This document shows positions 6,884 through 41,100 of a stretch of DNA of 64,000 nucleotides, piece after piece. Positions within the stretch are counted from its first letter, which is position 1. Every line of letters begins with the position of its first letter. The notes beneath the pieces are model-generated. The model was not told where the DNA came from. It saw only the letters and a program-made list of their open reading frames with translations, and did no database searches. A program made the translations under genes and the position numbers. The stretch is from Astropecten irregularis (taxonomy: Eukaryota; Echinodermata; Asteroidea; Paxillosida; Astropectinidae): NCBI GenBank assembly GCA_963971285.1, contig OZ020256.1, forward strand, positions 1,056,501-1,120,500, written 5' to 3'.

Positions 6884-9800
6884 TTACATGCCACTGTAGG
6901 CCGGCCCCCCACCAGCCTCAGGAACGACCCAATTAATGTTTTGACTAGGGTCTTTGATGTCGCAGGTCTTACAATGGACGCAATTTGATGCGTTGATCTG
7001 TAACCTCATGCCTTCACCGTCCTCTGTAGGTACATACTCGTAGACACCTGAACAGTTGGAGAAACACATAGATCAAATATTATGGAAAATACAATACATG
7101 AAGATGCATAAAAGACATTTTTTTACTACCACTAAAAACAACTTAGATTTAAGTCTGTGCAAAGCGGAAGTACATAAAGTAATTGGTTTTGAGACATATA
7201 TTTTACTCTTTCTATGAGTTTGGGTGGCTCTGAAAAGAGCCGGTAAACTTGACGTTCTGGCCAGGTTGCAAATTCAATATTTTTATATTAACATTCCTGG
7301 GAAGAAAGTAAAGGGAAGATTCAGAGTTTTAGAGTTCGTAATCAGATCTTCTGATGTCCTCTTAAAGTAAGAAACATGTAAGAAGTAAGAAAATTGCAGC
7401 AAAACGAGGTACCATACCTGCTGGGCAGAACCGTCCCTCGGGTCCGTCATATATACCCAAGTTGCGATCTACCGGCACGGAATCATTCATCAACGTCAGA
7501 TGGGCTGGCTGATCGCTCTCGTGGTTGGTCCCACTCAGGGCTACAGAGCTTAGGAGATCAAAGCTGACCTCATTATCTGGCTTGGGGTACTCAATCGGGG
7601 TACATTCTGATGCCGGCTTCAGTGTGTCACAGTCCCTGCCTGAAGGGTGAGGATTTTAACGGAAAAAAATTAACGAATGAATTCAAGTTTCTAAACAATT
7701 TGTATCTGTCAAAAAGAGTGTTAGAGTTGCCGTTGTGTTTGTCAGATTCAGGACAGGCCATAGCTAGCTAGAATGCCATGGTGTTATTAAGTTGAATCTG
7801 GAGCATTAAGTCATGTAGAGTGTAACGACTGCATAGAAATAGAACCCAACCCTCTTCAAATGCCACTTTTACCTGGATGTTTCAGAGTCCAGGGTTCCTT
7901 CCCTCTACCGATGAAGTAGAAGAGGGCGGTGTACAGCATGGTGCCGAACACGCCAATGGGGTTGTGGAAGGACGGTCGGATGTTACGCACCGCGTGGAGC
8001 TCCTTCCACGCCCAACTCTCCTTCATCTTGGGCTCGTACTCCTCGACGTACACTCCTGGAGGGCACAAGGTAAGGTATGGATTGGATCATTTGGGCCGAG
8101 GTAACCTTGGTTATGCATTAAATTGCCTTTCTTCTTTAACAAAGACAATAACGGCAATTTTTCATATTGGTCACGTTGGTCACGTCACTATGAGATCCTA
8201 CCATGAAATTATCAACAATCATACAATAACAGATGTTTTTTAGGATTTTGGAGTGAGCAAAGACAATTTGAAAAGAATCAAGAAATTAACTGCTCTACCA
8301 TGTAAGCTATCTGGGTTTATAATGAGGCTCTCCGCATCTTCAGCCGTTGTGCATAGAATTTAACCTGAGTTTTGAACTATTATGATGTTTCAACCTGTTA
8401 CTAGCTATCCCATTACTAATTAATTGCAGCACTAGCAGACTGAAATGAATGTTCATAATACAATCTTGATTTCTATTGTGACAGGAGTGGATGGGAAGCC
8501 AGTACCAACCTGCCGTTTCTGAGCTGACGTTCTCCTGAGTGAGTTTATCGTACAGCGTCTCAGCAGCAATCATGCCACTCTTCATGGCGTTGTGGGTGCC
8601 TTTGATCTTGGGCACATTCATGAAGCCAGGACTGCAACCGATGAGCATACCTCCCGGAAAGGCCAGCTTGGGAACAGACTGCAGAAGACAAAGCAACGTC
8701 AACAACAGAATCATGTCTAGATCATACAGATCTGCATCCATCACAGTCCAATAACAACTAAAGAAGGGTTCTTAATAGCGACAATGGGCTGGTTAGTGCC
8801 AGCGACCGGCCAAACCACTGACCTGAAATCCTCCTTCATTGAGGGCCCTGGCACCGTAGGCGATCCTCTTTCCTCCTTCGAATGTCGGCCTGACGGATGG
8901 ATGCTGCTTGAATTTCTGGAACTCTTTAAACGGGCTGATGTAGGGGTTTGTGTAGTCCAGACCCACGACGAAGCCCACGGCTACGAGAGGAGCGCCCTCG
9001 CCGACGTGATAGAGAAAGGAGCCGCCGTACTCCTGTGCAGTCTGTGTGGTATACAGTGATGGAAATAGGTCACGTAACGCATTCAGTTTGAAATACACAT
9101 ACTCAAAGTTTTGGCTGGGTGCTTAAGCAGCTCAAAGAAATTGGCCCCACTAGGCCACAGCATCAAATAAATCAATGACTTTGCAATTATTTCACTCACC
9201 AGAGGCCAGCCAACGGTATGTTCAACTCTCCCTGGATGGTGCTTGCTAGGATCAACCTCCCACAGCTACAACAACAAGCATACAAACAAACGATTTGACA
9301 AATCTGAACACAGTGATGTCACTAGTGTCTGACCGTACATAACATGTTGGCCATGTCTTTAGAGGCAGTTGGTGGAGCATTCGCCATCATGGGAAGGATC
9401 TTAATTAAGGTGCAAGAGCAAGAGAAAGGTAGAGAGAAATGGAGTGATGATGACATAAAGATTTAGAGTGCATCAACATCCTACACAGATGCAAAAAGAG
9501 CTGCAGAACACAAAAGTAGATGGAGAAGTATGCAGGCCAACCAACCAGTCTTTGCTACTGCAACACATGATCATGATAATGATGAACAGAGTATTAACAA
9601 TCAAACTTCTCAGAGGTTTCCAGCAATGAATTGTTGCATCGTTATCAATTTACCCTCACCTCTTTTATACCGATGGCATAGGTCTGAGGCTGGCAGTCCT
9701 TCCTGAGGTCAAACTGCTTGTACAGTTGCTTGGCTAGATGACCGTGGCAGCCCTCGGCGAAGATTGTACACTTAGCGTGCAGCTCCATGCCTCTCTCAAA

Positions 9801-12441: not shown

Positions 12442-15400
12442 ATGGCTTTTCGTGAACACAAAGAAAGCAAAAAGAGTACATTCCGGAAGGAAAAGGAGCG
12501 AATTTCAAAGAGATTCCAGATGAATCTCGAGGCGATTATTGCGAAGGTAGGATTTGCAAACAGCTAGGCTAACTGTTACTTGTTAGGCCTAATTCCTAAC
12601 AAGTAACATAAACATGGTTAGGCCTAATTAAAGAGGAAATCCGTGTGTTACCGACACAAACAATATGAACAAAGCAGCAGCAAAATTCTCCTTTAATCAT
12701 TCATTGATTTACTTAGTTATAAATAATAATCAGTGTAGATGATTTGTTTCAATTAGGACTAACATTATCTGTTCAAAATTGTTTGGATTTTAAATTTTTA
12801 ACTGAGATTAGGGGGCCTAACAAATTGAAATTAAACAAACTTTTCATAATGGGAAAAGCATAACGTAGGCCTAATATCTTTTAAGATTTAACTTACTGGA
12901 TACAATACAAGTTATATTGCTTGAATCTCAGTTGTGTAAAACTGAATGATGCTGAATGCAGCTGCAGCCATTTTTTAAAATATGAAAACACCCTATGTCG
13001 GGCGCCAGCTAGTTCAGTCCCATCTTGTGTAATTGTGCACAGGGTGTCAAACTCAAAGTCATGTCCGTCAGTGAAACTCTTTCCGAAATCATTACTGCTG
13101 GAGCTTACTTGCAGTACTTCCAATACGTGTATCTGAATTGAAACTGATTTGGTTTGTATTCTGATGTTTTTATTGCAGTATGACCATCCCTTTGAAGGTA
13201 GTGATGTACTCGACCTCGATGATATGACCATCGTGGAAGACAGAGGTATGGTATAGATTGATGGTCGTATTCTGTACTTCGAATAAGGAAGGATTCAGTG
13301 TTTGACCTAGATAAGTTTAGATACAGATTGTCATGATTGTCTAGGCCCACTCTGTCTTGGTTCTGGCTCCAGCAATTTGAGAATCGATCCGCCTCCGGTT
13401 CTGAGCTCTTCACCAGAGAATTGTGTCCTCCCTCTGTGACTGTCGATGGAGTATGGTAACTAACTGCGAACGTGCCTCTTTATTCACATCTTGTACAGGT
13501 TTCTTGAGTAGTAGGAAGCAGATGAAGATTGGCATGACCAAGTTGGCTTCGGACAAAGCGTCATCCGTATCTCGCTCAGGTAAAACTTCCAAGTACAAAC
13601 TGTTACAAGTCATGCATTAAGTCCTCATATGCTGCCTTGGAATTTTAGAATCCACAGAAGTGATATCATTTTGGATACTGTCTGGACTTGAATCCTGATC
13701 CTGTTACTTCTGAAGTGCTCTATTGTATAACATGTTCAGCCACAGTTTTAGCAACAATAGGCGTCCTAATAAAAAAATTAATACCCAGGCCTTGATTTTT
13801 AAGGAGAGTGAGAGTGATCACTCTCCTCCGCTCTCCTTAATGCTTTCCAAGGAGAGGGAAAAAAAGAGCTCCCTAACAATTTAAGGAGAGCTGCCCTTTT
13901 TCAAAACACCACATACTGACATCAATTTTTCCAGCCAACATTTACCCTTTGCGAAAAATAACAAGAAAAATTGACAGGACATGCAAAATTGTGCATATGT
14001 TGTCTTTTTCCGACACCGGACACATGCGGAAACTTGGTTTAGCAAGAGCAAACTGCTTTTTTTTCTTCACTAGTATGAGTAAGCCCTATGTTGATTTTAA
14101 AAGGTTAATTTGCAGAGCTCTCAAACTTGATTTTTGTTAGCGAGAGCAAATCACTCTCCTAAAATCTACATTGATTTAAGGAGAGTGATTTGCAGCTCTC
14201 CTCATTTTTATTAAAATGAAGGCCTGAATACCACTATCTGTACAATGGACCGTTTTGGCTTTACTCTTAAGCCCCGCCTACGTGTGTGTTTTACATACCG
14301 CATGTGACCGAGTGTGACCGAGGCTTTCGTGGTAACCTAATTAAAAGTTGTCCTCCAATTGTTCAATGTGCACAGTTTGATTGACAGGCCGGAAGGGTCC
14401 ATTGTAAAACAGACGCCATGATACAAATCCTTTCCTCCACTTTTGTGGTATTGACTTTCACAGGTATCAACTGGAACTCCACCAAGAACAGCACAGACTC
14501 TGCAATTGGCAGCACTCGCTACAGCGAAAGCGAAGACACATCAGGGACAGAGACTATAACCAACTGCAGTTACCGGGTAAGAAAGATGACAATTGACGGT
14601 CTAGATTCCTTCAGCGTATCTCATGATATAGTTATCCCTCTGGCATATTGTGTCAACTTTGTGCCAAAACGGATCAAAACGCATCAGGCCCTCCTAACTC
14701 CAAGTTTTGCACTCTATTTGTTCCACAGATTCCGAGCATTGACAATGTGGTGGAGGATGACAAAGCCATCGTGAGACATGGAGGTGAGCGAGATTTTAAA
14801 AATTGGTGTCTGTCAACTCTTGAAAGTTTAAGGAGGGATTAAGAAATCAGTGAAATGTGTGAATGGATTTTTTGAAGGCATATCCCCTAAAAAGATGACA
14901 TTTGATGCAGGGTCTTGATAAGATCAATATAAAAGTCTGTGGAGACTTAGACCTGCTTGATGTGCAGCAATAGTTTCAGCTTAGGAGAAACGTACAACTT
15001 GACCATGTTCTAATGTCTGGAAAAGTAAAGACACTTTTTGCCAATAGTGTTGTCAGTTTTCTACATTTTTGTAATTTTCGTTTTGAAAACTTTTCCTCAA
15101 TTTGTCTGCAGATGTATGGATGAAAAAAGATTCTCCGTACAAAGATTCAGGCAACGAAGATGCTGATTCTGACCACAGTGGTCACATCTGCAGACCATCA
15201 AAGTCTCCACTCCAGTCAGGCTTGCCACAGCGCCACCAGAGGAATCAAGACTCCATTCGTGATTCGGTCAAACAGGCCTCCCGACCCAGCGTTCGGGGTA
15301 ACCTTTCAAGGAGGTTCAATGATGCGGAGGACAGCATGAAGCCCAAGAGAGAGTTGCTCTGCCGTGCTCGGTCATTAAAAGAAGAGGAAGAGGATGAAGA

Positions 15401-18400
15401 AGAAGATGATGATGATCCATACGAATTCAGGGAGGAGCTGCCCTCGATCCTCGAAGAGAAAAACAAATTTCTGTTCAAGATGCAGTCGATCCTGGTCGAC
15501 AGCTTCCTCGACGGCGACGAAATTGACGAGATGGACTCACAGACCGACGATGAAATAAGCACAGAAAATATTGAGAGCACGGAAGCAGTCAGTGGCCCCA
15601 TCTCAGCCTGGTCCACTCTCCCTTTGAAGACACCGCCAAAGCGAAGCTCTAAAAACCCCGGAACTTGCCAGCAGAAGGTTGATGCGGTAGCGAGGAAGAT
15701 TCTTAGTCCCAGGAAAGCCCAAGGTCAGAAGCTATCGGAAAGGGACGCAGTTTCAGGTACTGACTCGGATCTCACGGAATGCAGTACCATTCTGGCAGGA
15801 AATTTACACTATGATAGAGATGATCCTCGACCTTCAAAGCTTCTTCTGGCAACCGGGCATGAGAGAGACTCACTGAGGAGCAGGGGATCCAAAGCACCGT
15901 TTCAGGCCATATGTAACAGTACTATGCTGAGTGAAATCAGTCCATTCGAGGAAGTGGATATGCTCAACAGGAAATCTCCACTTGATGTGGATGAACTCAG
16001 AGGCCATGAAGTGCCACTGGATGGGCAAGGGGAAATGTACTTGGGTGAGGTTCCTGAAATTGATAACTCAAACTTGAAGGCACATTCACTGAATGAAGAG
16101 GGAAGCAAAACACCCAAGGCTGTCAGTGTCAACAACGTTGAATACAGCACACCCAGGAGACCCAGGCTGCATGTGCAATCAAAGGAAGTTCCGAGAGGGG
16201 ATGAGGTTGATTCGGAGAAGGACCGGGGTAAGCCACTGACGCCATCAACAAGAAATCACAGACTGGGAGATGGCAGGATGGACCCATTGGGTCATGATGT
16301 ATCAGGCTTCACTCCAAGGGCTCGGTTGAGGAGAGGCGTGTCCTTCAAGCAGACACCACAAAGCTTGTCGTCCCCCCGCTTTGCCACAAATGAGATCATG
16401 GAGATATTCAAGTCTCCCAAGCCTTTGATCATCCCAGGTGTTGACTTGAACGATCTGGAGCTGACCCCCAAGAGGAAGGTGAAGCGCGAGGCTGCCGCAA
16501 CGCCAACAGAGCCCTTTAGAGACACCCTGCTGCGTTTGCAAAGCCCTGTTCCTCAGCAGAAGCTAGATAAAACTATTACACCCAGACGGCAAAAGGAAAA
16601 AGAAATCAGATTGTCAAATTCAGCTCTGGAAGTAGCCGTAGAATGTGCAACTCAAGGTGATGCATCAGTTAGAGTTAAAATCAAGAGAGACATTGATTTA
16701 TCTAAGAGGATAGTTGATCTCGAGGAGAGATCCAGCCATGTTAAAAGGAGGCAGGGTATGAAAACAGCCGATGAATTCTTTGAAGATGTCAGTGACGTGT
16801 CACCCAAGGTCCGCAAAGTCCCAAAGAGCTTGGATGGAGACAGGAGAGGCAGTGCCTCCCCAATCAGCAAGAAACCAGAGACACCTCGGAAAACAGCTGA
16901 GAAGATTCAAGCGCCAGCTCCAACCCATCCAACTCATGGTGTCGACCAAAGAGCTACCCCAAAATCAAAACGAAGAGGAGAAAGACAGCCTAACAAACAA
17001 ACTTGCCACAATGACCAAGAGGAGATGAACTCTGACATCAGGCCTGACAACTCTTGTCGTCCAAAGCATGCAGGAGATTTCCCATCAGGTAGGACTTTAA
17101 GGAGCTCAAGCGACACCAAACAGCTCAGCGTTGACAATGCCAGGAAGTCACACCCTCAGCCAAGAGGTGCCACAACTGAGAAACCTTCTAATCGTCCAAG
17201 GCCTTCCATGCAAACACCAAACAAGGAGGTCACCCCTGACACACAACAGAGGAAACCTACTACCTCTCCCTCATCGGAAAGAACCCCAAGGTCTAGAAGG
17301 TTAGACGGATGCCCTATGACCTCTGGAGGTCAGTTTTCACCCTCCACGCTCTCCTCGCCCTTTGTTCACATGTCCTTGGCGTCACCTTCCAATTTGAATG
17401 GACAGAAACAAGACAAGCTTGCAAGTGACATCAAGAGTAAAAGGCCCACGGTGCTTGGCACAAGGAACAAGGAAAGATCCACAGTGAAACAAACACAGAC
17501 GAAATCTGCAAAGGAACCAGCAAAAGTGAAAAGTAGAACCTCTGATTTGAACCACCGATCAAGACTTGACTGTACTCACATGACAATCAGATATAGTGAT
17601 GATACATCTGAGGAGGAGATGGAGATGGATGTCGATCCATATTCTCTGACAGCCGATGATTCATCACTGAGTCCAGACCTTCATCAACGAAGACCAGAGC
17701 TCCAACCCAAAGGTAAACCCAAAACAACCAAGAGTTATGTGCCTCACAAAAGCAACGTTGGCCTTAAAAACTGTGAGCACCGGACCAAGGGGGAGAATCA
17801 TTCCAAACCAAGCACTCAAGACTGCAACAAGAACCTGACAACAAGTGTCTTCAAGAAATCTGTCTCAAAAGATATGGTATTAGAAGTTATGAAAACCAGT
17901 CAGAGAAGTACGGTGTCAGGACCAAGCAGAAGTTCAATCAATGGCAGACACTCGGGTAATCTCACAGACTCGAGACAATCACGCGCTGCTGTGAGGAACA
18001 CACAGAGTCCTGGTAAAAGGAAAATGTATAGTGGTGTCCGAAAGTCACCCCAAGACAGTCCCCGGCCTTCCCCGATACATAAGGTGTCCGCGGTACCGCC
18101 AGAGAAAGAACGGTCTCCTGAGAAATCCTCCAAGTATGGAACAAGAAGAGAACATTCAGCGTACCTCTCGGATGAAGAGAGCAACTCCTCAGGTGATTCT
18201 GCCAAGTTTTTTTCCTCCATACCTCACAGAGACTGGCACAAAGATGCCTTAGATGCTGACTGGCTTACAAAGAAATGTATGAGCCCTAAGCGTAGCGGAT
18301 ATTCTGAGCAGGCGGTCGTTTCAAAGCATAGAACAACAATCAAGTGCGGCCAGATAATCTCCACCCCCAAGTCAGCAAAAGCCGTCCCGATGGGATCACC

Positions 18401-18752
18401 GTCACGCCAGCACAGAGCGCATTCACCATCTCACAAGGGTCGTGTGGAAAAAGCACGAAAGGCACTCATCTGTTCGCCCAAAAGAACACATCGGAAAATC
18501 GAACTTCAATCGGAAAACATGCCCTCAAGAACTTCCAGCAGACTAGTCTCCGGAGGGCAAGCGGGTATCAAAATGGCCGCCCGGAAACTGATGGCCTCCC
18601 CGTCAAGCCGTCATAGCGACAGTTTGAGGGAGGACGGGTCTAGTCCCATGAGGGCTAGTGGGTGTAATGTGAGTTCATCTTACGTGTGCGAGGGACCTGG
18701 TCTCTGTACTAAGCCGTTCTGTTTCAGCTGTGCCCTAGGCCCAATCAGCTGA
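12442..18752 (+). CDS. Scm3/HJURP-domain protein, putative CENP-A chaperone
   Basis: Coding exons 12442-12546, 13179-13245, 13499-13579, 14464-14576, 14729-14783 and 15112-18752 give one frame of 1353 aa. Residues about 19-60, split over exons 1-3, read KRFQMNLEAIIAKYDHPFE, then GSDVLDLDDMTIVEDRGFL. This matches the Scm3 pattern (helix ending KY-x-x-PFE, then D-x-x-DL-x(3)-IV-x-D-x-G) seen in human HJURP and fungal Scm3, which deposit centromeric histone H3. The rest is low complexity: Ser/Thr/Pro/Lys-rich with many SP/TP sites (CDK-like), an acidic run at about 231-242, and a Cys-rich end (C-x5-C-x4-C-x2-C within the last 24 residues). The start is the first ATG in good context (AAACATGG). 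The gene is much longer than human HJURP (about 750 aa). Exons and frame are secure; the family call rests on a short domain. Confidence 0.8.
13786..14226. mobile_element. foldback element in intron 3 of the Scm3-like gene
   Basis: The ends are inverted (CAGGCCTTGATTTTTAAGG on the left; a right end whose complement is TCAGGCCTTCATTTTAATAA). Between them GGAGAGTGATTTGC-like segments recur in both orientations. Noncoding; MITE/foldback-like. Confidence 0.55.
14676..14715 (+). repeat. fragment of the GATCC...CAGGCCCTCCTAACTCC repeat
   Basis: GGATCAAAACGCATCAGGCC followed by CTCCTAACTCCAAG closely matches the repeat at 52298-52365. It lies in intron 4, immediately upstream of the exon 5 acceptor. 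Confidence 0.6.
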
Positions 18753-23495: not shown

Positions 23496-26400
23496 CTATC
23501 GTCTGGCGTCTCCCTCTAGGCCTAAATTCACCTGGGCACCTGTAGAGGAGAAAAAAACACAAAGCAAACCACAAATTACATTATGCTGCCACAAAATTCA
23601 AGAGGGTGATTACAATTTCTTTTCAGCAAAATATGAAAATGAGATAAAAATCAAGAAAACCAGAAATGTTCACGTACAAACTGACCTTCAGTGTGGTCCA
23701 TCTGTAGCGTGACCTGATCATGATTACTTGCACCCTCGTTGATACTTGGTGAGTCCATGGTAGAATAAGTGGTGCTGGTCTTTATACTCTCTCTAATATC
23801 TCCTTTCCCTGCCAACACAAAATATGAGAATATGCGCACATCACCAACTGGGTTGCTGCTTCCAAGTTTGTACATACACATTTTCCAGTTGGTGAAAATC
23901 TTGTCTTCTTGCAACTTTTATCTTGTACACGAGTATGGCACTCTCTAAACATGCCTAGCATTTGGTAGCCAAGAATCCATTCAAAATTAAATTTTTGTGG
24001 TTTTGTCAAGCATACCTGCCCCCTTGTTGTCCATTTCGTGTCCGCTGCCAATGTCACTTTCATCGCCGTCCAGTAACCGATCCGAGTCTTGATCTCTGGC
24101 CTGCACAGGGTAAGAGATCCCGTCGCCCTTGCTGTTTCCCACAAGAAATGACAAAAAACAACAACAGCATGATAGCTTGACCACTTAGACAATGTTTGTA
24201 ACATAAATCTAAACCACAAATGCAGGGCCTCTGTAAGCACGTCTGTATTTCCTGCTTCAAAACATGTAAGAGTCTGTGGACAGAGTGGAAAGGAATATGC
24301 CTACCAGTACCATCTGTACTTTGGAGTGCAACGGCTCCAACCCTTGCAGCTAATAGTGAAACATTTGTTAGCAACTGTGTGTCATTTGGTAGCAGCTGTG
24401 TGTCATTTCAGCAACTGTGTGTCATTTGGTAGCAGCTGTGTGTCATTTGGTAGCAACTGTACTTGTGTGTCATTTGGTAGCAACTGTGTGTCATTTGGTA
24501 GCAGCTTTGTGTCATTTGGTAGCAGCTGTGTGTCATTTGGTAGCAGCTGTGTGTCATTTGGTAGCAGCTGTGTGTCATTTGGTAGCAACTGTACTTGTGT
24601 GTCATTTGGTAGCAGCTGTGTGTCATTTGGTAGCAGCTGTGTGTCATTTGGTAGCAGCTGTGTGTCATTTGGTAGCAGCTGTGTGTCATTTGGTAGCAAG
24701 GACAGAGGGCTCTTCTGTCGGAAGCTCTTCTGTAAAGTCCCTCTCAGAAGCAATCTCCTCTGTCCCGTAAGCTCTCCCACCACCCACAGGAGAAGCTAAC
24801 CTACCTGGTGAAGATGGGCAGCAGCCAGTACCTCTTGTCCATTCCAAAGACCTCCTTGAAGTTATTACAGAAGCTTCCCCTGCTGAAACCCTCCTTATCT
24901 GGGCCGTGGCGGAAGACAGGAGCGCGGAAGGACTCTGAGGGAAGGTTCAAGACATGCAGCATGAATCTTGGTCATAACATGCGACAGTCTCTACCTAATC
25001 AAGTGGGTTATCATCAAGTTTTCTCTGACGGTCTTCCTCCCATCTTCTTGAAACCTGTAATTCCTATCTCTGCCTTCCCACTTTGGGTCCCCACTAGAAA
25101 TACACGTTCACGGAATAAGTCCAAAAAACTTGAGTTTGTCCTCCTAGCAAAAACCCACATAATTAGATAAAACTTTATTAAAATAACCAATGCATCTATT
25201 CAACAATTCCATTTAATTTACACTCAATAAAATTCCATGTTCCAGTACTAATTCAAATGAACATTTATTTACTTCATGGAATGTTCTAGAACGACTTGAC
25301 CAGCCTCTGTAATGGCAAGCATGGAGGGCCACAAATCTTTTGTGAATTCAGTCACTCACACGTGAGTGAAAGGTTGGTATGTGGTGGCCCCCTCTTATGG
25401 CCGCATTCAGAGGCCTGGTGGGAACAAAACTTACTTTAAATAATGCCTCTTTGAGCAGGGTGTCTTAGCAACAAATAAACTGACCACTTCAAGATTCAAG
25501 ATGTTGATTACTTTTTGAAAGTTTTAGGATAAAACCTGATTAAAAACCGTGGCAACTTCAGATGCGAATCAAGCAAGGATTAGCATGTGTGTTTGTTGGT
25601 AGCAGGTGTTAATTACTCCACATAGTACGCCATATGCAATGTGTACGATGTATCACAGGGAATAATGAATGATCGTTTGGACCACATGTGGTAATGTGCT
25701 GTATACATATTTTACCACTACCATAACCATGATGATAAAGCAAACAGTACCGGTAAGTATTTTGCATGCAGTGAAGCAGAATGTGTTATTGCGGCTTACA
25801 TGTACATGTAGTTAGGTCACAAGGCTTCACATCTGGACCCTAAAGGCATTTGATGGCTTGTGAATACTGAAGATGCATGTACCTCCCCTTTCGATATAAG
25901 TGATGTCATGTTTATGACAGGGCGCGGTGCAGGGTGTGGCAGGCAGGGCCTTAGTAGGTTAACATACTGGTGAGGCTTATTGTATCTGCTTACCTAGTGT
26001 GCTTCTATTGGTCAGTGTGAGATGAATATGCATGATCATCAGAATCAGCACACTCAGGCTGAACATGACGGCCGCAAAGAAGAGGAAAACGATTTGAAAC
26101 TTCCTGACGGCCTTGTCCCCCAAATCACCCTGAGGCACAGACACAGAGAGAGAGAGAGAGACAAACAAAGAGATGGGTGGAAGTGATCATAAGAAGCCAA
26201 TATGGTGAGATAATTAACCCCACTGTGTGCCATAATGATGACATGCTCCTGCACCTGTCAATGTCCGACTGGATCACCTGTTCATTAACCTTAAAATTGT
26301 CCTTAACCCTACCCAACCACCAACTTCCACTATTTCATGCTTAGCGGATCCTACTTGCCACCACATTTCAGTTTTTACTCGTGTGTGATTTCTTGCTACG

Positions 26401-29400
26401 GTAAGTATTATTCGGCTAGCACAGAAACCCTGTGCTTACCCTCTAAGCACAGAATGCGAATCATAAGCACAGAATTTTGCTGGTTAGCACCAACAAGAGT
26501 TTGAGCCCAATAGCCAAAACGACAATGCAGGAAATGAAACACCCCTCAAAGATGCAGGATAAATGGTATGAGAGCGTCAGTAGGGAAAATGGAATTAAAA
26601 TGCCTAAATGTAATGTTTAATGTAAGTTAATCATTATTATTATTGTTACAGGCCCAATATATGCACCATGCACCAAATTGCTATTGTTATTTGTACCATA
26701 ACAAGCAGCAACATCAGCAGCAACAAAAATAACTAGAGGTTGTGTCTGTTGAAAACAGAACACATGGCTTTTCCGCATAATAATATAAAATATTTCTCAA
26801 ATTAAATACACATCGCTTATTTTGTTTAATTAAGACATATTTATGTTTCAATTTAGAAAACTTAAGTATTAACCATTTACTTGCAGGGTTTATGGAGCCC
26901 CTGAATGAAGACATTGTCATTGCAAGGGACATACGTACGATGACATCATGATGCGAATATTAAACCAATTGCGAGTACAACATCATTAGCGAATACAAAA
27001 TAATTTTCTGTATTCGCAAATTAATGATATCGTCTTCGCAAATGATTTATTGAAGATGATATCATTTGAAAATATAAAATCAGTTGCGAATGCAAAATCA
27101 TTTGCGAATATGAAATCATTTTGTGAATACTGAACATCAGTCTTATAATGATTGCCACGTATAGAACAAGATTAGATGCCTTCGAAGTCCAGGGGAAAGG
27201 ATGTGACTTTAATTTGTTCATAAACGTCAAATTGCCAGTTGAAAAAAAGACAAAGTCTATGGATCATTGCCGTTTTTCCATAATTTGTTTTATACAGTAT
27301 AACTATTACCAAGTATTAAGTTGCACATGTATAAGCTTAACACGACCCATAAAATGATGTACAATACTCCGCAACCTACATCGATATTATTCCTATTAAG
27401 ATGGTGGTGCTGGTATTTAATATAAAAGACTTTCCGTCTTCCCAGATTTCAATAAAAGATGATGATAGGCGGTGTACAACATCATAAATTATACTGACAC
27501 CACCGCAGAATCTCGTTATAATCAAAAGAGGGCGCAATTCAAAACAGTGCGCTCCGAACACGGAATCGTGCATTAGTGCGCGTGCATATAATTATTTTCT
27601 TGTCAAAATCAACATTTATGCAGCTAGTGCTAACTTTACTATGATAAGAAAGTAAATGAAAAAACGGCACACATAATCCAGGCAATCAACCATCCCAGCG
27701 CACCTTGCATTTATGTTGTTTAAATCGTATGTTTTATTTAATGACCAATATTTTCACGTACTCAGAGCAACCCTACATCAATAGCATTTCGATTAAGATT
27801 TGGTGCTGGTATTTAATGATATATAAAAAGACTAACGTGAAAATGTGTATGGCGACATGTAAACGAGTCACGCACTCGGACATTACATGTGCATGTACAT
27901 GTACATGTACAATGTACATGTACATGTACATACACACATACATGTATGTCATACACAGTGAATTACGTATGTACGTACAGTGAGTGGGGAATTGAGCGTC
28001 GATATGTTTTAATATGTACATGACCATCTCAATGTAGAAATTGGTTTAACCCATTTTAGTTGCAGGGTTATAATAGAGCTCCTGTCATTCAGTTGGACAT
28101 ACGATGACATCATTATGATGACGTTGGAGAACCTGAGTGCTTTTGAGGATACATCATTATGCAAATGACACGAAATCATTTTGCGAATACAAAAACATAA
28201 GTGTAACATCATTAGCGAATACAACATCATTAGCCAATACAAAATCATTTGCGAATACAAATTCATTTGCAAATACAAAATCATTAGGGAATACAAAATC
28301 ATTTGCGAATACAAAATCATTAGCGAATACAAAATCATTTGCGAATACAAAATCATTTAATGCGACTACGTAATCATTTTGCGTGTTCATTTGTTGAAGA
28401 TGTTATCATTTAATTGCTTTTACGCAAAATGATTTTGTAGTTGTTATAATGCTGATCTTCTAAGACTTAATTGTTTGCGAATACGAATATGCGAATACAA
28501 AATCATTTACGAATACAAAATAATTTTGCGTAATCGCATATCGTCTACGACAAATGATTGCGGGAAGACGATATCTTTTGTGAATACGAAATCATTTGCG
28601 AATACAAATCATTTGGAGAACATGATTGCATGAAACATATTTGCTTCCATGATGAAATTCAGTCTTAAACTGATTGCCACGTATAGAAAGAGGCGCCTAC
28701 AAAGTCTAGGGCAAAGGACGTGACATTTACTTGTTTCATGTGTAAAACTGCACTGACTAAATTGCCACGTACAAAAAGACAAACTCGATGGATCATTTCA
28801 GTTTTTCCATCTAACTCTTCCCAAGTATTATAGTTCGATACTTAACACGACCAATCGATAGCATTTCGATTAAGATTTGGTGCTGGTATTTAATGATATA
28901 TAAAAGGACTTACGTGCAAACTACATGTATGGCAAGTTGTAAGTTTTTACGACGTTTTGTGTCACGCAATCGGACATGTGCATTGTATGTTATACACAGT
29001 GAATTGCGTACGTAGGCCTACTTGTACACTGTACATAGTGTATGGGAAATTGATCGAGCTTCATTTTGTACAACGGCCATGTTCACGTAATCTGTGTACA
29101 AAGTGAACGGGCTATAACATATTTTAAAACAATCACATAAAATCAAGTTTTGACGTCATGATGATGAAAAGTTTTGTATTGGGAGACTTCATTTAGACCA
29201 AGTTTGGTTAAGATCGGCTGTTTAAAAGTAACCAAAGTGCCGCGGACAAAAATCTGTGTACAAAGTCTATGGGCACATTTCTACGTACAATTCAATGGGC
29301 TAGCGTGAACAATATTTTTTAAAATCATAAAAAAAAAAAAAAAATGACGCTGGCTTAACATAAATTCATAATTACAATCCCGAACCTCCATTGTACCAAC

Positions 29401-32400
29401 CTACCAATTTTCAAGGTGATTGGCCGTTCCTGCTATACGTTATAAAAATCGCATTTTTTATGACGTCATGATGACGTCACCGATTTTTTGTCTATGCAGT
29501 GTTCATCTATGGTGTATGCTGAAGAATTATCAAAAAGAAATTCAAAGATATCTTGTTTCGTTTACAAGAAATCGTTAAAAGAACTTTAATGACCCAAAAT
29601 GTCAATAAATCATAAAAAATTAAGGAATGACGTCATGACGTCATTGCAATTTTTCGATATAACACTTCCGAACTTAGATACATACCAAGTTTCAACTCAA
29701 TCGGACTTAGGGTTCGTTCATAATTGATGTCTGAAGTTTGCCCCTTTAAGACACTGTCACGTGACACCTGATGACGTCATGATGACGTAAATTTTGCGCA
29801 TACAACTACCCTACAGGGACTTTGTTTTGACCAAGTTTGGTCAAAATCGGCACTTTAAAAGTAGCCAAAGTGCCACCTAGAAAAAACGACGACAAGAAGA
29901 AGAAGAAGAAGAAAGTAAAAAAAAAATCAGAACAAAAATAAAACCTTTTCCGTTGAACACGGAAAAGCCAAAAAACAAGCTTAATCAAAACAAGCATGCT
30001 TAAAAATCTGTGAATTATCTTTTTAGCCTGCAATGTCATTAATGTATGCTAAATGCGTAAGCCATCATCATAGGAAAAACAATATCCACGGTGTAAATCC
30101 CCAACAAAACAAAAAACAATTCTGAAATGAAAAATCTGAAGTGGTCAATTTAATGTTGAATTAAGACACCCTGCAAGAGGCGGAGCCATGTCATGACCAC
30201 GCCCCTTACCTAGAGTGGACCAGTTGTTGGCAACCAGGCGCACGTGCACGAGGAATAAGAAAAATACGCTCAGGCAGAAGACCAGGGAAACTATGAATAG
30301 AAACATGATGTTGAAGCTACCGACCACACGATCCAACATGTTCTATACGCATTGCCAATAAAAGAACAAAATAATATGCTCAGTCAATGACTGCCACAGA
30401 ACAAGATTCAATAAGAGAAAATAAAATTAGCAAAATGCAGAAACAAACTAGATGTCAATCTTATTAAAGGACATGTACATGTATAACATTGGTAAATAAG
30501 ACAGAGCAGTTGCAGACTGCTCATAATTTGATTTGTCATGGAATAAAAACAAAACCTGTGAAATTTTCAGCTCAATAGATCATTTTAAACAGTCGAAAAC
30601 TACGACAAAACGTTTCAATTGTTACATCAAATTATGTGTGAATATCTGTCCCATTTTTGATCTTTCCAAGATCAAAAATGTTTTGGTGTTTGGTTTTACT
30701 CTTTTCTAGATAGATACAGCATTTCAGGCAGAATAATGTTCACAGTATATTTTTACCATTACTGTCTTTATACCCTGTAAGTTAAACGTAAATCTGTGAA
30801 CTTTTATGTTTTGGTTTGTTACCAATGTTGTACATGCCCTTTAAGGAAGGAATTTATAGCTGAAAGGAAATAAGAACAAATCTCCTTTAAAATTTAATAC
30901 AAAATACATATCAAGCAAGCTGAAATACAAGTATGCTCAGGCATAAATTTCATATGAACATTTGGATGGCCGTAAACATCAAACTCTCTGACTGATAAAA
31001 TGGCCAAAAGAAAACCAATAGGCACGAAATGAACAGAAATATTGTTCTTACCTGCCAGAACTGAATGAAGAACGGCAGCACCGTGAGGGCGACAAAGAGA
31101 CAGTACAGTATCGTGTAGAACAAGAAGAGAACAAAGAACTTGTAGTTGCTGTAGCAGACGCAGTTGTTGACCCAGGGACAATGATGGTCCATCTTCAAAA
31201 TGCAGCTGGATCGGGAGAGGGAATGGACGGATTTCAGTTTCGATGGCTTTGGAACTACGAGGACAGAATGCTAATAAATTGACACAGCAATGCTTACTAT
31301 CACTGGGATCAGATTTATGACATGTCTAGATCCATTTTCTGGAATGAGCTTGGCAGTTGGGATTCTTTAACACTGCATTGAAGTTGGCGCTATAGGATTA
31401 CATTATTATTATTACAATCAAAAGTCAATTTAAATTTTGTTTAATTTATGTTGTGTTAATTTTTAATGTGTTAATTTACTAAGTGGTCAACTTCGTTACT
31501 TTAAGTAAAGGTTTTAGCATTCTTTCTCGATTGTGTCTAAATTAGAGCTGTGTGTAGATTCTCAACCTTTTGGATGCAGTTAGCTCATTATAAGATCTCA
31601 TTATTATCATTATTATAAGCAGTTGTCTAAATGTTCTTGCTGTCAATAATATCTTCAGGAATGTTACACATCAGCTACTGATGCATACTACAAACTCTAT
31701 TTAGTTGCTTTAATACATTTGTCCTCAGCGCACAGCTTCACAGTATGACCATTCCTGAACAAGTCTACCATCTGTGCCATATGGACGTGAATAAGATTAC
31801 AGTATGTTTATTATACAGGCTCCAATGATGCATGCCTTTATGCAATTTGGCACAAGGACACTAGCAGACAGCAGTCTCAATTATGAGTTCCATTAAATGA
31901 ATGACTCTTCTTTGAAACTGCATCTTGAGATAATCAATTATTTCATTGCTTCTGCACGATGATGAATAAACTAGCAAATAGAGTCCATCCCAATAAGGCG
32001 TGTTTCTATTAGAATGTGGATTATAGCCGACTGATAGCATTCCTCAGCATAATCAGCCGAGAGAGTAAACCTTCGCAGTTGACTGCTTCCAAGAACACTC
32101 ATGCATGGGCGATATTAATTCCATAGGAACTGGTAAACACCGGGCTTTGTAGTGGAGACATGACTGAAGATTTGTCATAAATAATCTGTATCCATGTGGG
32201 TGTGATTATAAACCCTGTAGACCAGCCTATGCATAATGTAGGCGTAGTGTAATGATGCATCTACCAGTGTCTACTGGCTAATAAAAACAGCCTTTTGCAC
32301 GGTTAAGTCACCCGAGTTGAAAGTCGCGGTAATATTTGCCCATTTTTCATTTAACCATCGGCTTGGTGAAGCCCCGGGAAAAAAAAGGCCAGTGCGGACA

Positions 32401-34956
32401 GAGCATAAGACTCAGACACTATCTGACCTAACAAGGCTCTTCTAAGATCTGCAGGGATTGATACAAACTCGGCTCTTAACCAACCAAGCCATCAAGATAT
32501 CAACTTAGAATGAGATGAGCACACTAGGATTCTAAGGTCAGAAGACCAAACTGTACTTACGTGTTGCAGACTGAGCAATGATGGCATCTGTCTGGTTTAA
32601 TCACCTTGCAGATTCCACAGTAACGCATACCTAAAATGCACAACACAAGAAGAGTACATCGATCATTAATCAAGCCATGTAATAGGGAGTCTGGTTGGCG
32701 TAGCAGTTCTTTCCTTGCCTTTCACCTCTGCGGACCGGGTTCAAGTCCAGCTCGGTTCACAAGTGGATTGGGTTTTCAGTCCCTGCCTGATTCCGTGGAG
32801 TTTACCCAGAATATTACTCTGGGGTTTTCCTCCCACCTCTAAAACTGTATCTTCTTCTCATCATGTTTCCATAACAGGTTTCATCAGGCTTGCGAGCTAC
32901 AGTGCCTTGGGCACTTTTGAGAAATCCTTGGTGTCATTACCAGAAATAAATAATAATAATAATAATAAATAATATACAAAGGGTCCAATAACCTTAAGTA
33001 CAGAGCAATTGGACCCGTGAAATTTGACAAAAGACAGACCACACATCGTACTTACCTCCTCCATAAGTACGAGTCACTACAGGAAGCCTCTTGTCTCTTA
33101 CAAAACCTTTCAAAATCTCGATCTTCTCTTCATTACGGTCCTCTGCTTCGTACTGTTGAAGCTCGGAACTCGTTAAAAAGAACTGTTGGCACAAGAGATT
33201 AAAAGGAATGAGAAGAAGCAGTTAGAAGCATTCAGCAAAAAAGACACGCTCAATAAGTACATGATTTTTGAATGATTGTTTTGGTTTTGTTCTCGGGACG
33301 TATAATTTATATGCATCTCACAGTAGCATAAGAAGCACAAATACTAGCTACATATATAATGAATATATTAGTGGTCAGGTAATTCAAGGATTTTCCTTCC
33401 TTCTCTTCTCAACAGGACTCACCTCTGTGGGGACTTTGGCAACTGGCGTCCATATTGTCTTCCAGTAAGCCCATAGGAACATCACCAAGAAGACATGGTA
33501 CAAGACTAAATACAACACTGTTGAAATCAAAGAGAGAAAAAATGCAGGTATTCATTCATTTTTCCTATGATCAACAATTTTGTAAATTAACACAGACGAT
33601 GAAAGCTGAAAGACAGAAATAATGATTAACTTACACATCAATGGTACACTCCTATCGATAAGAATAACTGAAAGAAAACAGAAACAATTTCCAAGTTTGT
33701 TAGTTCCTGGTACAATGACATTAAGTTTACAATTTCAAGAACAATATTGTAATACATGAATGCTCAATTTAAAAAAAAGTCCAGTGTCTGCTCCTTTGTC
33801 TAGAATGAAAAGTTCCTATCTATAAGAAAGTACATTCAACTGAACTCAGATCTACTGTACATCAAATTTGTTTCATATATATATTTCACTGCATAATTTG
33901 TGTTTGTTGAGTGCACATGGAAAATGAGTTTCAGGCTGCAGTTCTGGTTATTTGACAACCTTTGACCTTTGGAATCCGAAATCTATTTTTCTAAACCTTT
34001 TTCCTTGTACAGATATTGGTCACTGTATTCAAACTGAATGCAAGTTTACAGCTGTAGAAGAACGAAAGCAATGAACGAGTCAGTTGATGTATTCTTTAGG
34101 CCTTGTGTTTATATCTCATTAGGGCGCCCCTTTTTATAACTGTGGTTCTCATTTCTTTTTCAACATACTTCAAAGTTCTTAATTTCTTATATTTTATATT
34201 GAATTGTGGGTACCCGGTTTCCCAACAATGACCATATAAACCGTCACTGTGCCATTTTTTAGTTTCATCAGGCTGGGGTAAGAACTAATGTTACATTTGC
34301 CGGCCAATCCCCCTTCCCATATTGGTCGTAAAATCTATAAATTGTCTTCATGTTAATTTTATTATAATGTCTTATTTGTCCATGATGACAATGATGGCAG
34401 CCATCCATAGGGTCTATTGCTGATCACGATATCCCACAACAACACAAAGCATCATGGGGTGGTGAAGGGCGCATCGTGTGCGCGTCGAGTATAGTGGATG
34501 CACCCTTTTAAATTAAAGGGTGCCCCCCTTCAGTTGAAATAACCGATCGACAATGTAATTATGAAAAAAAAGTCATAAAAATGTCAACAAAAAATCCAAG
34601 AATAATTTAACATTTATTCATGGGAATTTAATCTGCTGCAAAACTAACATATTGGCTGCATTTAAATAGTTTGATCAGAGAATGAAAGATAGGATTAGGA
34701 AGTATAGCACTGCCACTGGCACTGGGATCGGCTTGTTGTGCACAAACCCAACGCAATTGATATGATGACGAACTAAAAAAAAATAGCCATAAAAATGTCA
34801 GACCCTGGCAAAATCAAGTAGCGATCGGAGGATCCAACGATACTCACATATACATAATTCCACCACATATGCATAGTACGACCATAAAATAACAGCAGTG
34901 ATGAAAACCACGGGAAACCAGCCGCAGATTTTGAGGCACACACCCAAAACTCCCAT
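23496..34956 (-). CDS. ZDHHC20: DHHC palmitoyltransferase of the ZDHHC2/15/20 group
   Basis: Membrane enzyme that S-acylates cysteines of cytosolic proteins, normally at Golgi or plasma membrane. Coding exons 5' to 3': 34956-34848, 33667-33635, 33517-33423, 33182-33056, 32630-32561, 31205-31052, then one of 30342-30210 (7B) or 26129-25994 (7A), then 24934-24805, 24131-24016, 23808-23686, 23539-23496. The frame closes at 377 aa with 7B or 378 aa with 7A (human ZDHHC20 about 365). The N-terminus ([13 protein letters not shown]) matches the family's first helix. The Cys-rich domain has [20 protein letters not shown], then catalytic DHHC at 151-154 ([13 protein letters not shown]). The TTxE-like STLE forms at the exon 7/8 junction, followed by [18 protein letters not shown] and YWLLPIF. 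The tail is Ser/Asp-rich. Could equally be the pre-duplication ortholog of ZDHHC2, 15 and 20. Head-to-head with NUP54. Confidence 0.93.
24371..24699. repeat. 21-bp minisatellite in a ZDHHC intron
   Basis: Sixteen head-to-tail copies of a 21-bp unit starting GTGTGTCATTTGGTAGC. Copies are nearly identical except for AGCT/AACT endings and one shortened copy. A 6-bp insertion (GTACTT) follows copies 4 and 11, seven units apart, indicating a higher-order duplication. Because 21 is a multiple of 3, several frames stay open on both strands (CVSFGSS on +, LLPNDTQ on -), but it is intronic (between exons 24934-24805 and 24131-24016) and not a gene. Confidence 0.92.
25994..26129 (-). CDS. ZDHHC alternative exon 7A (fourth membrane helix)
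   Basis: 136 nt, phase 0 in and phase 1 out, encoding [20 protein letters not shown] ... NRSTL plus one base. Its acceptor follows an exceptional CT-rich tract (CTCTCTCTCTCTCTGTGTC ... CCTCAG) and its donor is CTAG|GTAAGC. It is homologous to exon 7B (FxIxFLF, FxLSV, STL) and occupies the same place in the protein. 7A resembles the vertebrate KFH[IV]xFLFFxxxMF segment more closely. Confidence 0.88.
26880..27470. repeat. duplicated module, copy 1
   Basis: Order of landmarks: TGCAGGGTTTAT...GAGC, GACATACGTACGATGACATCA, GCGAATACAAAATCATTT array (26985-27130), ATTGCCACGTATAGAA, CTATGGATCATTGCCGTTTTTCC, TGGTGCTGGTATTTAATATA. The same landmarks recur in the same order at 28050-28920, and the last part once more at 27775-27860. 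Confidence 0.7.
27880..27970. repeat. TACATG/TACA simple repeat
   Basis: ACATGTGCATGTACATGTAC and further alternating ACATGT/GTACAT palindromic units. Confidence 0.8.
28050..29030. repeat. duplicated module, copy 2, with 18-bp minisatellite
   Basis: Second copy of the module at 26880-27470, with a longer array (28190-28380, resuming to 28620) of the 18-bp unit GCGAATACAAAATCATTT. It ends with GCATTTCGATTAAGATTTGG and TGGTATTTAATGATATATAA, shared with 27785-27830. Confidence 0.7.
30210..30342 (-). CDS. ZDHHC alternative exon 7B (fourth membrane helix)
   Basis: 133 nt, phase 0 in and phase 1 out, encoding [20 protein letters not shown] ... NNWSTL plus one base. The acceptor has almost no polypyrimidine tract (GGCAATGCGTATAG); the donor CTAG|GTAAGG is like that of 7A. 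One codon shorter than 7A, with a homologous hydrophobic helix of different composition ([15 protein letters not shown] versus [15 protein letters not shown]). Confidence 0.88.
32685..32974 (+). repeat. tRNA-derived SINE with (AATAAT)n tail
   Basis: The head has a tRNA-like A box (GGTTGGCGTAGCAGTT) and B box (CGGACCGGGTTCAAGTCC). A unique 200-bp body follows and ends in AATAAATAATAATAAT. Head, body and simple tail are the hallmarks of a Pol III SINE copied by a LINE. It lies in the ZDHHC intron between exons 5 and 4. Confidence 0.8.
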
Positions 34957-38100: not shown

Positions 38101-41100
38101 ATGCAAATGTCTATCACTTCCAGCTAAATGACTTAATGCTTCCTGTATTCTTTTTTAAAATTAATGATTCAAGTTGGAGTTCAATCAAGCTTTTGGGGGT
38201 TCCTTTTTACATCCAGACTGTTGGCTACAGTGTCAAACCCACCTCAAAAGACGAAGACGGCCTCGTCATTCTGCTCTTCAAAAAGAAGGAGGAGGAAATC
38301 CGCAGCCTTCAACAGCAGCTGGTGGACTCGCTGTTCAAAATCCTTGGGAGTAAGCCGACACTGTCCGTCTGCGTGGAAGACGTGAAACAGCTGCCAGATG
38401 ATAAGTATGTACTCAGTCCTTGCCTAGACTCAGTATTATCGGTAGACTTAGGAGTTGTCTGACAAGATGTAGGATTTAGTCAACTTCACAATCATCAACT
38501 CAAACCCAGAGGGCTTGCTGGAATGAAAGAATTATAAAAAGACCTTTTGTATAGCTGGCCAATGGGATTTCGTGTGCACAATTTTAGCACAAATTGTCCA
38601 ACAATGGATTTATCATATACTTTCACTGTATACTTTCGCCCTATGCAACCAAAGTGTCCCGTTGTTTGAGCCAAAATTCAGACATTTATTTCATATTCTT
38701 TCTGAGAGCTTCCTCCAGCATAATTGTCCCAGTAGGAACCTAAGTGTAACAAACTGGTAAATTCTTGATTGTCTTGTCCAGGACGGAGGTCATCATCTAC
38801 ATCCAGGAGCGATCGCCCACGGGACTGACCAGGAGGATCCCGACGTCCACTGCCTTCAGCTTCTTTGGACAGTCCAACATCAAGACCCAACTGGGCAGCC
38901 TCGGAGTGGTGGACATGGTCCCTAAGCTGGCCCTGTCTGAGGCCCAGATTGATGCCTACCTCAGCACCCCTCCTGTAGGTGAGTATCTGGGGGCGTAATG
39001 GGGCATCCTCATCAGGTCACTGCTCTGTACGGAAATCCCTGATGACTTTATGAACAGGCCACATCTCTGTCTCTCTCTATCCTATGACCTCTTTTCCTCG
39101 AAGAAGATTGCTGATTCCCACCTTCAGCTGAGCAGTCAGCTCCTCTGAGAATCTCCTAATTTTGACCTTGTGCCTTTATCATCTTTTAGCCTTGTTTAGT
39201 GTCCACATTACAAACAGATTCATATTATTTATTTAACTGAAATTAAAGGTTGTACCTTTGTTAGTCCTGCCATTTTATTACTGATTCATTTCAATCCAAG
39301 TTTCTGCCTGAAAGTTCTAAAATGGATGGACATGTGTAATCTTCATGGAATGTATTTTATTTCTTGTCTCAATTTGTCAGGGTATGACCCGAGGCTTTGG
39401 CGACAAGCTAAGCTGGACAACCCAGACCCTGAAAAGTAAGTCCTGATCTCCATGAAGTTTGACTGTCAATGTTTTTGTCCATGTCTTTGGCCTAGAAATT
39501 TGAATGGCTGTGCAGGTTATTGTCCTGTATTGATTTTTCACTCATTTGATAATTTAAGGGTATCATTTTTTATATAGTTATGAATTATATTTGTGACAAT
39601 TTTAAAGAATGTATCAATTACTCTATTATCTTTTTGTTTTCTTAATTTTGGCATCATATTATATTTTCATTTTTAGACTGGTACCGGTACCGATGGTTGG
39701 TTTTCATACACTGAAGAGTAGGCTTGAAAACCAAGAGCAGCAGACTAAACAACATCAAGCCAGATTAGACGTGAGTCTGTTCAAAGATATTTTAGTTTGT
39801 ATTTGAGGATTACGACCACCAAGTAGCACAGCATCGAGGAAAGTCTGAACACATGCTGGACAGGATTCCAGTTCTCTGCTTTCAACATCTGTTAGAATAG
39901 CTCTTCCAAGCTGTGTTTTCTATACATTTTTGGGTGCTTGTTCACATTGATAGGCCTATCTGACTTGAGGTCGATTTCAGCAAACTCAGGACTTATGATG
40001 CATTGTAGCCCAATGTAGGATATGATGGGTTATCGTTCGTATTTCGAGTTACGATCGATCGTAGGGCTTAGTGAAATCGACCCTAGGCTTCTAAGCCCAG
40101 CCATAGCTTGGGACCATTGCATGCCAACCTGTGTGTTTATATAAAATCCACTTCCGGGAGACCACATACACAGTGAGCTGAGAAATGTTGACAGGCATTG
40201 GCCCCAGCTATGGTTGAATTAGTCCATTAGTTAATAGTTGGTAATCAGTGTTTGCCAAGCGAAACTCTTGGTGCTTAGCATATACATGCTCTTAACAAGC
40301 TCTAAAAAATGGTCCCAGATTCCAATACCGCATCCGTAACACAACGTTTGGATTTATTATCTTTGAATTGATTCTTAATTTGAAACAGATGATCAGTCAA
40401 GATACAGAGACCTTACAGCACAAGCAGACTACCATCCAGGCCAAGATAGCTGAGTACAAGAGGCGTCACCTGGAGCTGTCCCACCGCGTCCTACGGGTCA
40501 TGGTCCGACAGGAGACACAGCGGAAGGCCGGCACGGCCATCCAGTTGGAAGAAGAACAGCTCAGGACCAGGCTGGAGGGCCTACAGGCTGAGGTCAATGC
40601 ACCCACACAGATGAAGGTAGGCTTGGGCATTCTTACTGCTCTGATACCCAAACAAATGACATTCAGGACCTCCACCTCCAGTTGTCAAGAACACTTCCTT
40701 CCAACCTGTTGGCTTCTCTCTCTGATCTTTATCTGGGTCTTTTCACCCCCAGGGCCGACTGAACGAGATGATGTCACAAATCAGGCTGCATAGCCATCTA
40801 CCGTCGGGCCGCGGTTCGGAGCAGTATGCGATAGCCAGTGAAATGCAACAGGAAATCAGACAGGTAAAAGATTGCTCTCTCATTTAGCGAAAAACCAACA
40901 GAGAGCTCCAAGCTCACAACACTGAATATGGTGTACACCTTTGGGAAGGGAAATTGTTCAGAGGTTTTAGTCGGACCAGGGGTCGATTTCACCAAACTCA
41001 TTGTAACTTACTATCAATCGTTGTGATGCATTGCATCCCTACATACAATGTAGGATACGGTGGGTTATCCTTCGTAACTCAAGTTACGATCGATCGTAGG

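Follow-up and report, generated by a model that had tools for sequence, protein, structure and literature searches.

Two alternative exons for the fourth membrane helix of a sea-star DHHC palmitoyltransferase: a probable mutually exclusive pair shared across echinoderms

Can one DHHC palmitoyltransferase gene offer two versions of its fourth membrane helix, and if so, how old is the choice and what would it change in the enzyme? The question is raised by a locus of the sea star Astropecten irregularis, contained in a stretch of 64,000 nucleotides (assembly GCA_963971285.1, contig OZ020256.1, positions 1,056,501 to 1,120,500) that we refer to as the window and in whose own coordinates all positions are given. 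A first-pass annotation of the window had described a DHHC palmitoyltransferase gene in which two homologous exons, here called X1 and X2, encode the fourth membrane helix and are built for strict either/or splicing. Our analysis supports this description, and relatives from several echinoderm classes agree with it. It further points to an old exon pair, the two versions of which would differ in the outer surface of the helix rather than in the preferred length of the acyl chain.

A palmitoyltransferase gene with two versions of one exon

The gene is complete and lies on the minus strand, from an ATG at 34956 to a stop codon at 23496. It consists of ten constitutive coding exons and the alternatives X1 and X2, placed between exons D and E (residue numbering here and below follows human DHHC20):

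34848 to 34956, minus strand: exon 1, start codon and helix 1; bounded by the ATG and a GT donor; 34911 to 34849 matches helix 1 of human DHHC20 in tblastn at 76% identity
33635 to 33667, minus strand: exon 2 (E2), 33 nt, with AG and GT bounds; frame preserved
33423 to 33517, minus strand: exon A, helix 2
33056 to 33182, minus strand: exon B
32561 to 32630, minus strand: exon C, in which the cysteine-rich domain begins
31052 to 31205, minus strand: exon D, DHHC motif and helix 3; constitutive, precedes the pair and holds the equivalents of Tyr181 and Val185
30210 to 30342, minus strand: X1, first alternative exon, 133 nt, one variant of transmembrane helix 4 (TM4)
25994 to 26129, minus strand: X2, second alternative exon, 136 nt, the other TM4 variant
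24805 to 24934, minus strand: exon E, constitutive, follows the pair and completes the STLE motif
24016 to 24131, minus strand: exon F
23686 to 23808, minus strand: exon G
23496 to 23539, minus strand: exon H, including the stop codon

Depending on whether X1 or X2 is used, the product has 377 or 378 residues, and the two isoforms are about 93% identical to each other. They match the Pfam DHHC family (PF01529) with 121.9 and 122.9 bits, the cut-off being 28.7, and 140 residues taken from the X2 isoform find human DHHC20 (6bml) in the Protein Data Bank with an E-value of 8.9e-53. Over the full length, the best database matches come from sea stars, at 80 to 83% identity, followed by those of other echinoderms; relatives carry names such as ZDHHC20-B-like, ZDHHC15B-like and ZDHHC2. 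By these matches the gene product is a DHHC palmitoyltransferase of the ZDHHC2/15/20 group, with predicted acyltransferase activity.

The coordinates, lengths and phases (start 0, end 1) first reported for X1 and X2 hold, and each exon is bordered by AG and GT. When aligned, the two peptides reach a BLOSUM62 score of 94, compared with a maximum of 51 over 2000 shuffles. Across 36 aligned codons, the first, second and third positions are identical in 18, 29 and 11 cases, the means for random pairing being 8.8, 15.7 and 10.2, and none of 5000 permutations gave as many identical second positions. With third positions at the random level and second positions well above it, X1 and X2 have diverged, to saturation where third positions are concerned, under selection for a membrane helix. 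Judged by these comparisons, they are diverged homologues of the exon for TM4. A tblastn search of the whole window with both peptides revealed no convincing third copy (best further match at E 0.02 among the 12 best rows).

The either/or logic of the reading frame proved equally sound: X1 alone or X2 alone, joined to the flanking exons, leaves the frame open to the stop codon. Inclusion of both exons introduces a stop at nucleotides 3-5 of X2, 500 nt upstream of the last exon junction, and skipping of both introduces one 96 nt upstream of that junction. The usual criterion for nonsense-mediated decay is the 50-nt rule, by which messages of either kind are predicted decay targets. The pair thus shows the sequence hallmarks of mutual exclusion: two neighbouring homologous exons are alike in length and equal in phase, and a readable product results only when one of them is used.

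Both segment types in other echinoderms

The first-pass annotation had suggested looking for the exon pair in related species. We compared relatives at the protein level, examining 138 proteins, namely those among the best 120 matches listed for each of two full-length searches of a database clustered at 90% identity. An X1-type segment is present in five of them, from Patiria, Acanthaster and Asterias (each named isoform X2), Lytechinus pictus (isoform X3) and Anneissia japonica (isoform X2), and an X2-type segment in four, from Amphiura, Diadema, Strongylocentrotus (isoform X3) and Anneissia (isoform X3). The coverage thus extends to three other sea stars, urchins, the brittle star Amphiura and the crinoid Anneissia. 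At this level the pair is retained in relatives: Anneissia has both types, urchin species share them out between one another, and the three sea stars have the X1-type. Three proteins with mosaic segments (P0009, P0010 and P0011, from Apostichopus and two like it) were excluded from the type counts, and the remaining 126 were treated as non-echinoderm. Together with the window, 11 segments were classed, six as X1-type and five as X2-type. A region search with the X1 segment alone returned only Patiria and Asterias (two of the six candidates), the word matching probably being strict.

An indication that the two types are alternatives comes from pairs of proteins with closely matching flanks. Pairing the 138 proteins with one another yields 400 combinations with a flank identity of 75% or more across a stretch exceeding 150 residues; the core of the segment falls to 60% identity or below in only three of these, and all three pair an X1-type with an X2-type. 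One is the crinoid pair P0012 and P0013, isoforms X2 and X3 of Anneissia, identical at 298 of 298 flank positions and at only 18 of 36 core positions, without a single difference upstream of the segment and with nothing but a 33-residue gap downstream. The other two pair Lytechinus with Strongylocentrotus (flank 246/273, core 17/36) and with Diadema (flank 259/327, core 17/36). As for conservation, the window X1 segment matches that of Patiria at 36 of 44 residues (0.83 for the rest of the protein), that of Asterias at 35 of 44 (rest 0.81) and that of Acanthaster at 32 of 44 (rest 0.83), in the last case being less conserved than the rest, and X2 matches Amphiura at 29 of 44 (rest 0.66), about as well as the remainder.

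Because two segment types recur in relatives, it is unlikely that either exon is a relic. The notion that one of the two is a relic or a decoy, never present in stable messages, could draw on the pyrimidine-poor acceptor of X1 (fraction 0.57, though the constitutive exons E2 and G have the same value). However, both exons keep open frames, splice sites and constraint at the protein level, and each type is found again among the annotated proteins of other animals, so that we regard this notion as very improbable. Equally to be considered is that the types in relatives come from two recent gene copies, with the pair in the window unrelated to them or made by the assembly. It is in favor of such copies that the two Anneissia records differ in product name (ZDHHC15B-like and ZDHHC2-like). 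Yet their flanks are identical throughout, their contigs are equally long, and Zootermopsis proteins P0112 and P0129 show the same naming split while being identical at 345 of 348 aligned residues; for these reasons we take P0012 and P0013 to be products of one gene. Moreover, the window itself has both exons between one set of flanking exons. Recent gene copies are, in our view, the least credible account of all.

Age of the duplication

How old the pair is can be approached through a tree of the segments (24 sequences, 36 sites; FastTree and IQ-TREE with ultrafast bootstrap, the IQ-TREE supports being read by bipartition). X1-type segments form a clade (support 0.962 in FastTree and 90 in IQ-TREE) nested within a group of all echinoderms (0.969 and 94) from which hemichordates are separate, and X2-type segments form none. 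Neither the two Anneissia segments nor the two window segments group together; instead, Anneissia isoform X2 joins the sea-star X1 segments (0.838 and 91). The simplest reading of this tree would be one duplication on the echinoderm stem, before the split of crinoids from other echinoderms some 480 million years ago or more. Since closely matching flanks with a strongly differing segment occur only as X1-type against X2-type, the pair probably predates living echinoderms.

The pattern of plain identity is weaker, and for this reason we keep as a rival that the pair is real but was duplicated independently in crinoids and in other echinoderms, the X1 features being convergent and the pair younger than the phylum. 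This would accord with the core of Anneissia isoform X2, which shares 58% of its residues with window X2 and 53% with window X1, and the tree is carried by only 36 sites. What speaks against it is that Anneissia isoform X2 groups with sea-star X1 and not with its own sister isoform, and that Met211 together with Val219 is found in all six X1-type segments and in none of the 126 non-echinoderm proteins. We consider independent duplication rather improbable.

The mosaic segments of P0009-P0011 resemble X1 at Leu215, Arg233 and Gln239 and X2 at His209, Leu211, Met219 and Met230. Loss of one exon or gene conversion is a possible origin.

What the swap changes in TM4

The differences between the two types fall on positions that the family otherwise hardly varies. 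His209, Leu211, Phe215 and Met219 are held in 124, 118, 126 and 124 of the 126 non-echinoderm proteins, respectively. The X1-type departs from all four in six of six segments, a count that is partly circular, the X1-type labels of Lytechinus and Anneissia having been set after their residues were viewed. The X2-type departs in one, one, none and none of five, the one at 209 and 211 being the window X2. Position 239 is Trp or Gln in five of six X1-type segments and Arg in 118 of 126 proteins of the family. By contrast, positions 208, 212, 214, 220, 223, 227, 231, 234, 238 and 240-243 are identical in all 11 classed segments.

One could suppose that the pair mainly sets the amount of protein through decay-prone double or skipped messages, the two proteins being equivalent. 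Both faulty forms are indeed predicted decay targets, but old and consistent differences at near-invariant positions are not expected of equivalent proteins, and we find this quite improbable.

On a helical wheel centred on residues 213 and 217, the cavity face shows an average mismatch of 0.45 between X1-type and X2-type, the far face one of 0.79 (one-sided permutation p 0.02; 0.036 for the window pair alone). The test is weak, and general conservation of cavity residues would produce such a bias anyway. With the changes concentrated on the far face and at the cytosolic end of TM4, our better guess is that they affect selectivity for substrate, partner or membrane. Structure models of the crinoid proteins place TM4 at 204-234 in P0012 (X1-type) and 203-235 in P0013 (X2-type), with the same architecture; the P0012 model aligns to DHHC20 6bml with a TM-score of 0.90 when normalised by target length, and of 0.71 by that of the query, whose tail is of low confidence. 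These models inform about the overall fold, not about the effect of the swap.

Human DHHC20 has been described, in the excerpt drawn on, as having a hydrophilic TM4 ridge for substrate docking (PMC9105814). We set aside docking on this ridge as the property that is switched: with Ser226 and Tyr230 guessed as ridge residues, both echinoderm types lack the former and 10 of 11 segments the latter. Ser226 is absent from all 11 classed echinoderm segments and present in 116 of 126 proteins elsewhere, and this, together with the loss of Tyr230, suggests that TM4 of echinoderms may have altered before the duplication or at the same time.

Acyl-chain length

The first-pass annotation had placed the swap next to the cavity that sets acyl-chain preference, a placement that our analysis does not support. 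According to the excerpts of the DHHC papers drawn on (PMC9105814, PMC9006032, PMC11471619), the cavity ceiling of DHHC20 is formed by Ser29, Tyr181, Val185, Leu213 and Ser217. The first three (Ser29 in the WSYY motif) are encoded by constitutive exons and agree with the human residues. Leu213 is shared by window X1 and X2, the Anneissia X1-type having Val there, and position 217 is the sole ceiling difference in the window, being Ser in X1 and Ala in X2. Given the shared ceiling residues, no marked change of acyl-chain length is to be expected. The rival that the same exon pair chiefly alters length preference through the cavity wall can still point to TM4 as the source of two ceiling residues and to the Ser/Ala difference at 217. 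Against it stand not only the shared residues but also the published simulations, in which, as far as these excerpts go, neither S217A nor L213A alone gave a positive shift, as well as Ala217 in two of six X1-type segments and the smaller number of changes on the cavity face. A switch of acyl-chain length is therefore weakly supported, and we think it unlikely.

The explanation we favor

Taken together, the observations are best explained by an exon duplication on the echinoderm stem that would have made a mutually exclusive pair in a ZDHHC2/15/20-type gene. Splicing would take either D-X1-E or D-X2-E, and messages with both exons or neither, being frameshifted, are predicted to go to nonsense-mediated decay. 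X2 would represent the ancestral-like TM4 and X1 the derived copy. Catalysis and acyl-chain length would be the same for both isoforms, and the outward face of TM4 (the 211/215/219 stripe) together with its cytosolic end (233-239) would adjust selectivity for substrates, partners or membranes, probably from one tissue to another. We consider this explanation as a whole to be likely. Homology, splice sites and frame logic, the occurrence of the types in several classes, the crinoid isoforms with identical flanks and the near-equal predicted TM4 helices are its observed parts.

Several points weigh against it. Splicing of both X1 and X2 in this animal is an inferred part, as are the mechanism of choice and the effect. 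Only the X1-type is seen in the three other sea stars, leaving the window as the sole sea star showing X2; given isoforms about 93% identical and a database clustered at 90%, a sea-star X2-type could hide behind an X1-type representative. In urchins, each type is seen in different species. That the differently named Anneissia records stem from one gene is inferred, the core of its isoform X2 is the closer by identity to window X2, and across the entire segment only 18 of 43 residues agree between window X1 and the Anneissia X1-type. The Lytechinus core has 67-69% identity with holothurian segments and 58-64% with sea-star X1, and the mosaic holothurian segments fit neither type cleanly. The short tree alignment, the partly circular X1-type count and the weak face test belong to the same side of the balance.

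How the exon choice could be made

All 11 introns are of the GT-AG kind with U2-like donors, those of X1 and X2 scoring 9.75 and 9.58, and the intron between X1 and X2 spans 4080 nt. These two facts rule out exclusion by steric hindrance or by U2/U12 incompatibility. Three intronic elements could take part in the choice:

26130 to 26172, minus strand: CU-rich tract at the X2 acceptor, candidate PTB-like repressor site
30131 to 30182, minus strand: duplex arm 1, starting 28 nt past the end of X1, predicted to form 46 pairs with arm 2 at -67.5 kcal/mol
25444 to 25498, minus strand: duplex arm 2, in the X2-E intron; its pairing with arm 1 would loop out X2

At 26133-26172 the pyrimidine fraction is 0.85, with 15 CUCU/UCUC matches compared with 0 to 4 at the other 10 acceptors. 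Within 300-nt flanks, the clearest excess is that of PTB-type motifs upstream of X2 (8 vs 1.8 in shuffles), followed by CA repeats upstream of X2 (2 vs 0.3) and UGUU downstream of X1 (8 vs 4.5); other splicing-factor motifs in these flanks are near background. A PTB-like repressor of X2 would fit.

Pairing of the two arms would place X2 in a loop and bring X1 nearer to E. When the 200 nt below X1 were scanned against the whole X2-E intron, the best duplex exceeded all 160 dinucleotide shuffles (z -7.1). An ungapped version of the test, run on six intron pairs, gave its best result here, with 2 of 200 shuffles as strong. For the 100 nt immediately below X1, no shuffle among 200 was as strong, but as this test was made after the pair had been seen, we prefer the six-pair scan. 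On the other side, inverted pairs of comparable strength are common in the window (12 rows), and with random placement a pair encloses one but not both of X1 and X2 in 7% of trials (P 0.07). This control used nine inverted pairs out of the 12 rows (200-nt tiles), repeat rows at 36.7k/45.9k having been merged and the weak 20559/29316 dropped. We found only one selector and no competing one, the window containing no further strong match to the arm 2 region (the next one has E 0.038). The 46-bp intronic duplex looping out X2 is a lead, not proof. A bolder version of our explanation, in which a switch controlled by RNA structure and predating the split of living echinoderm classes toggles the outer surface of TM4 between an ancestral and a derived form and so provides a single gene with two sets of substrates, is tentative, and we would not count on it.

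In the X1-X2 intron there is also an 18-bp satellite-like repeat (ATCATTTGCGAATACAAA) at 28208-28379 and nearby, with inverted copies around 26998-27137, and the E-F intron has a 21-bp tandem repeat of about 16 copies at 24362-24698.

Other features of the window

Part of a Nup54 gene (Pfam PF13874) lies at 40296-40790 on the plus strand, opposite to that of the palmitoyltransferase gene; FG-rich reading towards 35.1 kb, judged by eye, suggests that it starts close to exon 1 of the latter. The minus strand carries an exon of an ETF-ubiquinone oxidoreductase gene (Pfam PF21162) at 8796-9122, and the plus strand an open frame of 1221 codons at 15087-18752, without a Pfam match at E 0.01. An imperfect palindrome of about 247 nt, 80% identical to its own reverse complement, occupies 3085-3331.

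Significance and comparison with known systems

The choice of substrates by DHHC enzymes is an open question. The locus offers a matched natural pair, one enzyme in two versions that are identical except for TM4 and apparently maintained in parallel, and comparison of the isoforms would test directly whether the outer face and cytosolic end of TM4, and not the acyl cavity, carry substrate choice. If the RNA-structure switch were true, it would be, as far as the literature searched shows, the first case in which splicing selects the substrate specificity of a DHHC enzyme. The first-pass annotation had known of no such exon pair described among these enzymes. Titles and abstract openings of the matches listed from the open literature indeed contain no mutually exclusive exons of a DHHC enzyme, but the isoforms themselves already stand in public records as predicted proteins.

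The enzyme shares family and fold with human ZDHHC20 (6bml, 6bmm, 6bmn and 7khm) and with 6bms, an entry named 'Palmitoyltransferase' that we take to be ZDHHC15; the DHHC core, the ceiling residues and four membrane helices are common to them. It is set apart from this kin by the X1 combination of Met211 and Val219, seen in none of the non-echinoderm relatives (90%-cluster representatives), every one of which keeps Phe215. The exon arrangement resembles the tandem duplicated exon substitutions of human genes, which, by the main texts of two catalogues (PMC9741552, PMC5740500), are mutually exclusive homologous exons at the same protein position, often ancient. Neither ZDHHC nor palmitoyl occurs in those main texts, and unlike the human cases, the present event is seen here in echinoderms only. 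Arms 1 and 2 have the right-hand docking layout, with the docking site downstream of the exon cluster, described for the docking-selector structures of Dscam, 14-3-3zeta and MRP in the part of the source drawn on (PMC6071210); unlike these systems, there is one selector and no competing structure, and the placement could be due to chance. As in the FGFR2 IIIb/IIIc type covered by the same part of that source (PMC6071210), the frame logic, here read from sequence alone, turns messages with both exons into decay targets. Events of this kind are known; what is new, as far as we have seen, is the enzyme family, the spread over echinoderm classes and the change at sites that are otherwise invariant in the family.

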